Below the pieces are notes generated by a model. It did not search any database and was not told the origin of the DNA. It saw only the letters and a list, made by a program, of their open reading frames with translations. Shown here piece after piece: positions 27,195-30,477 of a stretch of 58,795 nucleotides of DNA. Position 1 is the first letter of the stretch; each line of letters begins with the position of its first letter. Origin of the DNA: Hyphomonadaceae bacterium (GTDB taxonomy: Bacteria; Pseudomonadota; Alphaproteobacteria; Caulobacterales; Hyphomonadaceae); NCBI GenBank assembly GCA_022844345.1, contig JALHLU010000010.1:120351-179145 (forward strand), written 5' to 3'. A program made the position numbers and the translations under genes.

Positions 27195-27958
27195 GCTGGA
27201 CGCGGATATACGATGGCCCCGAGCCCGTGCGCGTCAACAAGTGGCTGGCGCAATCGGGCGTATGTTCGCGGCGCGAGGCTGAAGAGCTGATCGAAGCCGG
27301 CGCCGTTATGGTGGATGGCGAGCGCGTAACGGACGTGGGCCGCAAGATTTCGCCGGGGCAGACGCTGGTGCTGAGCGATCGCGCCGAGCTGGGTCTTGGC
27401 GCGCAGGTGTCCGTGGTGATCCACAAGCCGGTGGGCATCGTGTCGGCGCAACCGGAGCACGGACAGACGCCCGCTGCGCGGCTGCTGACGGCGGAGAACC
27501 TGGTCGGCGGCGGCATCGCGCCGTCCTCACGCGCGAGCCTGCCGCCGCTGGGCCGGCTGGACCAGGATTCGCGTGGGCTGCTGCTTTTGTCAGAAGATGG
27601 CGTGCTGGCGAAAGCGATCATCGGGCCCGACAGCGAGATCGACAAGGAATACATCGTCACGGTGAGCGGCAAGGTGGACCGCACCAAGGTGCAGAAGCTG
27701 CGTCACGGGTTGGAGCTGGATGGGCGGCAACTGAAGCCCGCAAAGGTCACGCTGCAGGACACGCAGGTCCTGCGCTTCGTGCTGACCGAGGGCCGCAACC
27801 GGCAAATCCGCCGGATGTGCGAGCTGGTCGAGCTTGAAGTTGTCGATCTGATCCGCGTGAGGATCGGGCCGCTGTCGCTGGGCGATCTGCCCGAAGGCAA
27901 GTGGCGGCACCTGACGGGGCCGGAGCGGGATGCGTTGATCAGGGGCTCAGCTACATAG
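27191..27958 (+). CDS. 23S rRNA pseudouridine synthase (RluF/RsuA family)
   Basis: A 255-residue protein: an S4 RNA-binding domain at about 14-60 ('VRVNKWLAQSGVCSRREAEELIEAGAV') and a PseudoU_synth_2 catalytic domain with D124 in GRLDQDSRGLLLLS, plus 'EGRNRQIRRMCELVELEVVDLIRVRIGP'. The closest subgroup appears to be RluF/RluB-like, which modify 23S rRNA. The start is TTG at 27191, overlapping the preceding stop as TTGA, with AAGGG just before it; no ATG lies between there and the S4 domain. The 3' end overlaps the convergent oxidoreductase gene by eight bases. Confidence 0.87.
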   Translation: MSWTRIYDGPEPVRVNKWLAQSGVCSRREAEELIEAGAVMVDGERVTDVGRKISPGQTLVLSDRAELGLGAQVSVVIHKPVGIVSAQPEHGQTPAARLLTAENLVGGGIAPSSRASLPPLGRLDQDSRGLLLLSEDGVLAKAIIGPDSEIDKEYIVTVSGKVDRTKVQKLRHGLELDGRQLKPAKVTLQDTQVLRFVLTEGRNRQIRRMCELVELEVVDLIRVRIGPLSLGDLPEGKWRHLTGPERDALIRGSAT

Positions 27959-29066
27959 CCGCGCGGCCGGCCATGATGGCGTGGCCATCGATCATGCGCG
28001 TCACTTCGGCGTCGTCCACACGCGTGTTCCAGTTGTCGAAGCCGACCGACCCGCCGAGCACGAGGGCTGACTTGCGCGGGAACATGTAGATCGACCCGCC
28101 GTCGATCGAGGTTGCATAGCCATAGTCGATCTCTGGCTGGGGCAGCAGCATCGACAGCTGACCGCGCGCGGGGATGAGCACAGGATCGTCAAACAGCGTG
28201 CGGGCGCCAAGGCCGGTGCAGTTGACGATGGTGCGCTGCTTCAGGCGTTCGATGTCCTTCACCGAAGCAAAGTCCTGATGCACCAGTTTTCCGCCTGCGG
28301 CGATGAAGTCGTCGATCAGGGCGGGCAGGAAAATGTCCGGGTCGATCATCAGCGTGTAATACGCATCCCAGTGCGCAAATCCGAAAGGCCCGTGGCCTGT
28401 CTGGTTGCGGCGCAGCCCCACGAAGATTTCCTCGCCGCCGGGATAGTGCTCGACCTGGCTGGGCGGGCCTGAACGCAGCACATGGTGGCGTATCCAGAAC
28501 ACGCCATAGCGGGGATTGTTCGCCATGTGCTGGAAGCGGCGGAAGGCGCGCTGCGAGGCGTGGTCCAGCATGCCGTAGAAACTCTCGCCGACCTTGTCGC
28601 GCCGGTAGAGCGTGGTGGGATACCAGGATGCCGCCGCGATGTTGCTGGTCGTGTCTGGCGGGAAGGCTTCCGAATAGATCGTCACCTGCGCGCCGGCGCG
28701 CTGCAGCACCAGCGCCGTGGTGAGGCCGATGACGCCGGCGCCTAGCACAGCGATATCGCTGCGGTTGGTGTCGCGCGCGAGATCGGCCGCCATTTCGGCG
28801 CACCCCCAGGACAATGACACCCCGCCGCCGCCATGGCCGTAATTGTGGACGACATCGAGCCGGCCAACCTTCACACGCTCAAGCCGGAAGCCGGTCTCGC
28901 GGAAGGGCCTCAGCCCGACCACAGAACGGACGATGCGTTCACGGCCGACCTTCACCGGGGCAAACGACGGGCCGGCTTCGCGCACGCCCTGCGCCTGGGC
29001 CCGGGAGCCGAGCGCAAGCAGGGCGGCGCCGGCGGTTGCGCCAGCCAGAACGTCGCGACGCCGCAT
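27951..29066 (-). CDS. Tat-exported FAD oxidoreductase, circularly permuted D-amino-acid-oxidase type
   Basis: A 371-residue protein with a twin-arginine signal (MRRRDVLAGATAGAALLALG, cleavage after about AQA at 25). The order of family motifs is unusual. 'GLRPFRETGFRLE' (51-63) and 'HNYGHGGGGVSLSWGCA' (74-90), which lie at the C-terminus of D-amino-acid oxidases, come before the dinucleotide-binding 'IAVLGAGVIGLTTALVL' (105-121). The substrate domain follows and the protein ends just after 'FPRKSALVLGGSVGFDNWN', where the GLRP segment would normally come. The frame is continuous and motif residues are intact, so it is probably active. It may oxidise D-amino acids or similar amines in the periplasm. 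Confidence 0.85.
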   Translation of the reverse strand: MRRRDVLAGATAGAALLALGSRAQAQGVREAGPSFAPVKVGRERIVRSVVGLRPFRETGFRLERVKVGRLDVVHNYGHGGGGVSLSWGCAEMAADLARDTNRSDIAVLGAGVIGLTTALVLQRAGAQVTIYSEAFPPDTTSNIAAASWYPTTLYRRDKVGESFYGMLDHASQRAFRRFQHMANNPRYGVFWIRHHVLRSGPPSQVEHYPGGEEIFVGLRRNQTGHGPFGFAHWDAYYTLMIDPDIFLPALIDDFIAAGGKLVHQDFASVKDIERLKQRTIVNCTGLGARTLFDDPVLIPARGQLSMLLPQPEIDYGYATSIDGGSIYMFPRKSALVLGGSVGFDNWNTRVDDAEVTRMIDGHAIMAGRAAM

Positions 29067-29132
29067 CGAAAAGTCCCCTTGGCTGATGGATCGGCAGGAT
29101 GGCCGTCATGTCCCTGCGATCAAGCTCTGACG

Positions 29133-29548: not shown

Positions 29549-30061
29549 CTATCGGTCTTGCGCCAGAAGTGCGCGGTACACAGCCAAGGTTGCGGCATCG
29601 AAGCAGCAGAAGAGAACCTGCATGTCGCTGGCGCCCAACGTCTCGCGCACCGTTGCGACGGCGATCCCGGCCGCCGCGTCTTTCGGATAGCCGTAGACGC
29701 CGGTTGAGATCGCGGGAAAGGCGATCGAGCTGCAGGCATGGTCGAAGGCAAGGCTTAGCGCGCTGCGATAGCAGCTGGCCAGCAGCTCCGCCTCGCCTGC
29801 CCCGCCGCCACGCCAGACGGGGCCGACCGTGTGGATGACATTGCGATGGGGAAGATTGTAGGCCCCGGTGATGCGCGCCTCACCCGTGGGGCAGCCGCCG
29901 ATCTCGCGGCATTCGGTCAGCAGGCCCGGCCCCGCCGCACGATGGATCGCGCCATCGACGCCGCCTCCGCCCAGCAGGCTGGCGTTCGCGGCGTTGACGA
30001 TGATGTCGACCCTGGCGCGGGTGATGTCGCAGTGTTCTGCTGTGATGCGTGGCGCGGCCAT
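29549..30061 (-). CDS. Macro domain protein (YmdB-like ADP-ribose hydrolase)
   Basis: A 170-residue single macro domain: '[30 protein letters not shown]', '[15 protein letters not shown]' and '[15 protein letters not shown]' are the ADP-ribose-binding loops of the MacroD/YmdB group. Such enzymes remove O-acetyl-ADP-ribose or mono-ADP-ribose from proteins or nucleic acids. ATG 30061 was chosen by comparison with YmdB; a GTG at 30079 would overlap the PIN gene. It lies five bases after the VapC stop as third gene of a tight operon, which suggests a functional or at least transcriptional link. Confidence 0.9.
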
Positions 30062-30066
30062 GGCGA

Positions 30067-30477
30067 TTAGTCTGACCACGGATCAAGGACGCCAACTTCC
30101 AGACCCTGATAGTCACGCACGTTTCGCGTCACGACCGTCAATCCGTGAGCAAGAGCGGTTGCGGCGATTAGCGCATCAACCGTTGGGAGCGTCCGTGATG
30201 CAGTTGCTGTTAGCTCTCCCCAGAGGAGAGCGACCTTGTTGTCGACCGGCAGGACGCGCGATCCAAACCAGGCAGGCAGGTCTGCGTCGAGCCAGCGTCT
30301 CAGAGTTGTCCGCTTGGCGCCGGGAGCCAGCCGTTCCACACCACGCCGGATTTCTCCGAGGCACAGGCAACTCGTGTAGAGCGAAGCGTTGTCCTGCGCG
30401 GCGAGCCAGTCAACGACGCTCGGCGAGGCTTGCGCCTTGGTCGGCTCGCAGATCGTCATGGTATCCAGCAGCCACAT
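30067..30477 (-). CDS. VapC/FitB-type PIN-domain toxin
   Basis: A 136-residue PIN domain with the acidic set D5, E42 (GEIRRG), D101 ([10 protein letters not shown]) and D122 near the 'VTRNVRDY' motif. VapC toxins are Mg-dependent endoribonucleases that cut tRNA or rRNA and are held inactive by the antitoxin C-terminus. The FitB-like features are 'LGEIRRGVE' and 'FGSRVLPVD'. It follows the antitoxin gene by one base and precedes the macro domain gene by five. All catalytic residues are present, so it should be functional. Confidence 0.92.

Follow-up and report, generated by a model that had tools for sequence, protein, structure and literature searches.

The window, a 58,795 nucleotide stretch of Hyphomonadaceae DNA, carries a gene for a flavoprotein in which the two parts of a D-amino-acid oxidase (DAAO) have changed places. 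Characterised DAAOs run from the GxGxxG motif through the catalytic part to the GxRPxR...HNYGHGG segment; the window protein has both parts, but with GLRPFR (residues 51-56) and HNYGHGGGG (74-82) ahead of GAGVIGL (109-115) in one open frame. Judged by its rotated order, its one joint and its place on one side of the tree, it belongs to a proposed sister group of DAAO that is permuted, widespread and for the most part exported. The best overall explanation, which we hold to be likely, is that this is a natural permutant of DAAO which is exported by the Tat system and oxidises D-amino acids in the periplasm, that the permutation arose once, and that the gene was gained by the window genome. The features of the gene are as follows.

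27951..29066, (-): permuted DAAO-like flavoprotein gene, 371 aa, ATG start, one open frame
29074..29079, (-): Shine-Dalgarno-like AGGGGA, seven bases 5' of the ATG
28992..29066, (-): Tat-like signal peptide, residues 1-25 (MRRRDVLAG...AQA, followed by QG), without lipobox Cys; from sequence reading, regex class, pLDDT below 50 at residues 1-29 and TatC in the genome
28779..28940, (-): former DAAO C-terminal part, residues 43-96 (GLRPFR strand, HNYGHGG, most of helix 79-98); human DAAO 272-329 aligns with residues 42-96, and ordinary-DAAO profile 236-311 with the part
28908..28910, (-): Arg53, equivalent of human DAAO Arg283; Arg in 106/106 permuted and 16/16 ordinary sequences
28821..28847, (-): HNYGHGGGG motif, residues 74-82; from sequence and alignments
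28755..28778, (-): joint, residues 97-104, from former C-terminal helix to former first strand; Trp-to-GxG distance 22 residues in 110/124 permuted sequences
27987..28754, (-): former DAAO N-terminal and middle part, residues 105-360; Pfam DAO profile 1-290 at residues 104-359, ordinary-DAAO profile 1-243
28725..28742, (-): GAGVIG dinucleotide-binding motif, residues 109-114; from sequence and alignments
28086..28088, (-): Tyr327, at the position of Tyr228 in human DAAO; of 90 main permuted sequences, 76 have Tyr and 12 have His here

The order of the two parts

The swap is seen against Pfam DAO and against PDB chains. Pfam DAO positions 1-290 fall on residues 104-359 of the window protein (E 6e-34), and phmmer against the PDB chains aligned residues 103-359 with 13-263 of 6rkf_A, and residues 46-98 with 280-335 of the same chain. 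Over the PDB-chain matches to D-aspartate and D-amino-acid oxidases, residues 103-359 correspond to the first three quarters of the chain and residues 42-98 to its C-terminal end; human DAAO gives the same swap by phmmer, with matching stretches 3-249 and 272-329. In the window's own genome, the permuted gene follows Pfam DAO from 255 to 353 first and then from 1 to 290, and the four strongest other DAO proteins follow it from about 1 to 350 in the normal order.

A profile of ordinary DAAOs was built from 16 DAAO-type sequences of ordinary order, 14 bacterial and 2 human. The native window protein gave two separate matches to it: residues 105-360 fitted profile 1-243 with 161.7 bits, and residues 23-99 fitted profile 236-311 with 70.4 bits. 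When the leaderless chain was rotated in three-residue steps and scored against this profile, the optimum was an opening at residue 102, which gave a single collinear match over profile 1-311 with 235.2 bits. The rotated order outscored the native one in 120 of the 124 permuted sequences and tied with it in the other four (L092, L133, L146, L156), and the natural order won in all 14 ordinary sequences, which are themselves members of the profile. Because of the two piece scores, the rotation scan and the homologues with the same order, chance can be excluded.

The earlier note had placed GLRPFR and HNYGHGG ahead of GAGVIG and denied that a frameshift lay behind it. Both statements hold: the motifs are at residues 51-56, 74-80 and 109-114, the frame is open throughout, and the same order is found in 116 distinct sequences from many assemblies, isolates included. 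We found nothing that speaks for an artefact, the homologues refute it, and we regard its probability as negligible. The order of the two parts is genuinely swapped relative to DAAO.

Extent of the permuted family

In total, 124 sequences with the permuted order were parsed, of which 116 are distinct, the window included. During parsing 17 loci were set aside (15 copies of included loci, the masked L089 and the broken L168), and L087, L138, L145, L149 and the weak-match loci L020-L032 and L122 are without a parsed sequence. The 124 include the window and repeats; removal of 18 copies or close relatives before the tree left 106, from which 42 were picked for smaller trees. L168, on a Mesorhizobium plasmid and annotated as two adjacent pieces, was considered as a split enzyme, i.e. 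a fission intermediate, and was rejected, as the annotation comes from a frame break inside GxGxxG.

Some match was present in 32 of the 61 near genomes, the window's own included, many of them weak and around the FAD motif. Apart from that of the window, 16 permuted homologues were parsed among these genomes. Twelve belong to the window's family f1, one belongs to f5, and the three in f2 are divergent; 14 of the 16 entered alignment A1. Closest to the window protein, at about 53-57% identity, are the proteins of Henriciella, Hyphomonas, Hirschia and Ponticaulis. Among named genomes, a scan gave at least 588 relatives, of which the best 80 by likeness to the permuted query were taken, so the frequency of the ordinary order is not measurable in that set. 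Of these 80, 77 are permuted by motif, with L084 and L101 added later; L087 was missed by the motif pattern, yet matches the permuted query in one stretch (residues 35-367). By record title, the hosts among these best 80 of at least 588 are Hyphomonadaceae, Caulobacteraceae, sphingomonads, Gammaproteobacteria, Acidobacteriota, Gemmatimonadota, Verrucomicrobiota, Bacteroidota (Ekhidna) and others. Many of the host genomes are metagenome bins, and isolates with the gene include Hyphomonas jannaschiana, Edaphobacter modestus, Pseudoalteromonas luteoviolacea, Ekhidna lutea and Dokdonella fugitiva. A bin of Thalassovita (L109) has two tandem permuted frames, at 2497 and 3826, and genome G109 has four matches.

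In a sample of the window's class, with at most six candidates scored per genome, 15 of 289 genomes match, 13 of them, counting that of the window, across the greater part of the profile. In its phylum, with at most five candidates per genome, 20 of 398 match, again counting the own genome, and each match to the permuted profile is a single stretch. A third sample, from the phylum of genome G061 (likely Acidobacteriota by its sequences), has matches in 24 of 199 genomes: 15 are permuted by motif (13 at first, then L126 and L134 with longer joints), one (G247) is permuted by the order of its pieces, seven are of ordinary order and one is unclear. This sample holds permuted as well as ordinary genes, and the two orders thus coexist there.

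The joint and the origin of the permutation

Across the joint, a conserved Trp (human 320) and the opening Gly of GxGxxG lie 22 residues apart in 110 of the 124 permuted sequences and from 20 to 58 apart in the remaining 14; L126 (36 residues), L134 (58) and L059 (29) have longer joints. The chain is cut just before the strand that bears the carboxylate-binding Arg, and such a near-constant joint together with this cut points to one event. The ends of a DAAO chain would have been joined by a short linker and the chain reopened just before that strand, so that the DAAO core now begins with what used to be its final ~55 residues. The permutation would be the derived state, because the Pfam DAO family has the ordinary order.

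In an outgroup-free tree with the parts put in one order, one branch splits 42 permuted from 16 ordinary sequences with support 100/99, and the split is present in 200 of 200 bootstrap trees. The two parts were also analysed one by one, with 42 permuted and 14 ordinary sequences. The N-part alone gives the same split (99*), and so does the C-part (87, not starred), which has only 67 columns. These half-trees bear on another way of reaching the order, namely a fusion of a leader protein with a DAAO-like C-terminal piece to a separate FAD-binding oxidoreductase that lacks its own end. Such a fusion would look alike by order alone, but both half-trees put permuted and ordinary DAAOs on two sides, the halves add up to a single DAAO and overlap only slightly (profile 236-243), neither part occurs twice in the window protein, the joint length is near-constant, and the halves fall in one DAAO-type family. 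A fusion of unrelated halves is ruled out by the half-trees, and we consider the fusion explanation as a whole very improbable compared with a true permutation.

The root is not firmly placed. In a larger quick tree with four far DAO proteins as outgroup, the ordinary DAAOs were nested inside the permuted ones, with starred branches that force two changes of order. In a reduced set of sequences, keeping the permuted ones together improved the tree by 11.7 log units (AU p 0.723). One origin is hence what we favour from the trees, and the family would afterwards have spread over several phyla. The earlier note had proposed a circular permutation of DAAO and a check of whether its carriers form a clade. 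The permutation is supported by the rotation scan, the homologues across phyla, the near-constant joint, both half-trees, a confident structural model and best PDB matches of DAAO type. As to the clade, the carriers do lie on one side of the outgroup-free branch (100/99), but the first rooted tree nested the ordinary DAAOs among them.

Predicted fold and active site

An AlphaFold model of the window protein (mf9ad4f1ef868), computed with 78 permuted sequences, has a pLDDT of 91.4 and a pTM of 0.88, and the pLDDT is below 50 only at residues 1-29. In a Foldseek search of the PDB, the 33 best rows are DAAO or D-aspartate oxidase (best E 6e-18; for four of these rows, 4qfd and 4qfc, the enzyme name is the one we take them to have). 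Their alignments are sequential and cover 268-301 columns, and the TM relative to the query is 0.57-0.62. The moved segment would occupy its DAAO position in the fold.

In DAAO, Arg283 (human numbering) binds the substrate carboxylate and Tyr228 likewise has an active-site role. The window protein keeps both, as Arg53 and Tyr327. Across the family, all 106 sequences have Arg at the position of Arg283, and the HxYGHGG segment is nearly as constant, which argues against a loss or change of catalysis with the fold and the FAD retained, for instance towards glycine, imino acids or D-residues in peptides. What could speak for such a change is that the residue at human position 53, a Tyr in the window protein, varies widely, and that the Tyr228 equivalent is His in 12 of the 90 main sequences. 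In a divergent subfamily of 14 (L017, L018, L019, L135, L136, L153, L156-L159, L161-L163 and L173) it is Tyr in only two, with the Arg present in all 14; the three members in alignment A1 have an RSARATG-type segment in place of TTSN-x-AG. We think that lost or altered catalysis is quite unlikely, and prefer a D-amino-acid-oxidising enzyme.

Export and the electron acceptor

A Tat-like leader, with a twin arginine and then a hydrophobic stretch, was found by regex in 101 of the 106 permuted sequences, and 81 of these 101 also have a lipobox-like Cys by the same means. In five sequences the regex caught an upstream RK first, and the RR is visible in the sequence. Of the five without a leader, L105 and L163 lie at contig ends, whereas the other three, L016 and the two rhizobial proteins L169 and L172, are complete. 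Scored in the same way, the 14 ordinary bacterial DAAOs all fall short of the cut. The leader of the window protein, MRRRDVLAG...AQA, is without a lipobox by reading and by regex, and TatC is encoded in the same genome (G000:C11). The Tat leader that the earlier note claimed is thus borne out by reading, by regex, by its presence across the family and by TatC. From their leaders, a soluble periplasmic protein is expected for the window copy, and most of its permuted relatives are probably lipid-anchored. The same note had suggested that the permutation was how the enzyme gained its export, which is plausible but hypothetical only; with what seems to be a single permutation event the idea does not lend itself to counting, complete permuted proteins without a leader exist, and the leader could have preceded, accompanied or followed the permutation.

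We propose that the protein folds with its FAD in the cytoplasm and is then exported folded by Tat, and that it would oxidise D-amino acids in the periplasm, where they may be released from cell walls or peptides, for example; the products would be 2-oxo acids and ammonia. The electrons would most likely be passed to oxygen. Activity, substrate and electron acceptor are here drawn from the family and the leader. The closest characterised relatives of the permuted DAAO are oxidases, and this counts against its being a D-amino-acid dehydrogenase that feeds the respiratory chain through cytochrome c or quinone instead of using oxygen. A periplasmic location would suit such a partner, and there are candidates for it: in Kozakia (L173) the gene is directly followed by a cytochrome c gene (Pfam Cytochrome_CBB3), and in eight of 78 neighbourhoods, all of one proteobacterial clade (L051, L058, L062, L063, L064, L070, L072, L075), a CxxCH protein of 449-504 aa is encoded on the same strand, its gene starting 1.6-3.4 kb past the start of the DAAO-like frame. 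However, the CxxCH gene is missing from the other 70 neighbourhoods. In subfamily B, where 10 of 14 loci are readable (two from one genome), a CxxCH frame stands beside the gene only in Kozakia, and the one other CxxCH pattern is 2.3 kb off on the opposite strand. The clade's CxxCH protein and the Kozakia cytochrome c keep the dehydrogenase in play, as an alternative that we judge to be on the unlikely side but still to be taken seriously; an oxidase is the reading we prefer.

Neighbouring genes and place in the genome

The neighbourhoods give no general partner. When 818 neighbour ORFs from 78 loci were clustered, no neighbour was common to more than nine loci, and the most widely shared one occurs in nine, all of them bins of one proteobacterial clade; no neighbour thus links the family with a D-amino-acid pathway. 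Some loci have surroundings of their own. On plasmids of Rhizobium (L169 1491-5717), Bradyrhizobium (L172 2363-6690) and Mesorhizobium (L168 1126-3329), the permuted DAAO-like gene comes before that of a thiamine-pyrophosphate enzyme. On the first two the permuted gene, here signal-less, also comes after a gene for an FAD-binding oxidoreductase, berberine-like by Pfam in Rhizobium. These rhizobial loci are possibly a biosynthetic cluster. On the Kozakia baliensis plasmid (L173 708-4520), a prolyl-oligopeptidase-like gene stands before the permuted gene and its cytochrome c neighbour.

In the window, the permuted gene is situated between the genes of an RNA pseudouridine synthase and a macro-domain protein. 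None of 14 other genomes of the genus, some of which are incomplete, has a full-length match. The synthase gene is present in ten of ten congeners searched; in five it is followed by the macro-domain gene within about half a kilobase and in two by purL, and in three neither stands in the flank. No DAAO match was found at the synthase site in these ten, and the seven with a readable site lack the gene there. Since the gene stands between synthase and macro-domain genes in the window and is absent at the congener sites, the simplest reading is that it was probably gained in the window lineage. The base composition gives no sign of import, with a GC of 0.635-0.685 over the gene and 0.575-0.682 in the other segments over 24-33 kb. 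Just beyond the gene, the macro-domain frame (29549-30079, (-)) and a PIN-domain frame (30067-30477, (-)) overlap by a few bases, and the macro-domain gene has the same place in five congeners.

Relation to known enzymes and significance

DAAO (EC 1.4.3.3) and D-aspartate oxidase of eukaryotes and actinobacteria share with the permuted family a homologous core, the motifs GxGxxG, GxRPxR and YGHGGxG, the Arg283 equivalent and mostly Tyr228, and they are its best PDB matches in sequence and fold. The permuted family differs in its swapped parts, its export leader and its side of the tree, and the window copy has Tyr at human position 53, where human DAAO has Gln. Other oxidases of the DAO superfamily, such as ThiO, MnmC and sarcosine oxidase, have in common with it Pfam DAO (PF01266) and the FAD motif, but are of ordinary order and far less similar. 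ThiO is the best NCBIfam match of the window protein (E 4.9e-11), with 42.3 bits against a cut-off of 250.8. Natural circular permutants are known among RAS-like GTPases and NlpC/P60-like enzymes, and in the passages that describe them these are likewise families in which the parts of one fold are rotated; the folds are unrelated to DAAO and none of those named there is a D-amino-acid oxidase.

We recognised no description of a permuted DAAO among the matches listed in the open-access literature searched, and one may exist elsewhere. According to passages of a 2022 paper on the discovery of DAAOs (PMC9844085), the bacterial DAAO genes identified number just over ten, all from one group (printed as 'Acinetobacteria'), many DAAO genes remain unannotated, and GxRPxR and YGHGGxG are conserved in the bacterial enzymes; in its main text, the string 'permut' is absent.

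A bolder hypothesis, which we put forward tentatively and think will rather fail than hold, is that one old permutation gave rise to a family of Gram-negative bacteria, for the most part exported by Tat and lipid-anchored, which in several phyla is the principal DAAO, with the new N-terminus enabling the enzyme to leave the cytoplasm, and that a periplasmic oxidation of D-amino acids has gone unnoticed. A textbook flavoenzyme appears here as a natural circular permutant that occurs in several phyla and almost invariably has an export leader, in a family that is easily missed by whole-length alignment. If its members are active, they point to D-amino-acid oxidation outside the cytoplasm, and would be a natural experiment on how a rotation of the chain bears on folding, export and activity.
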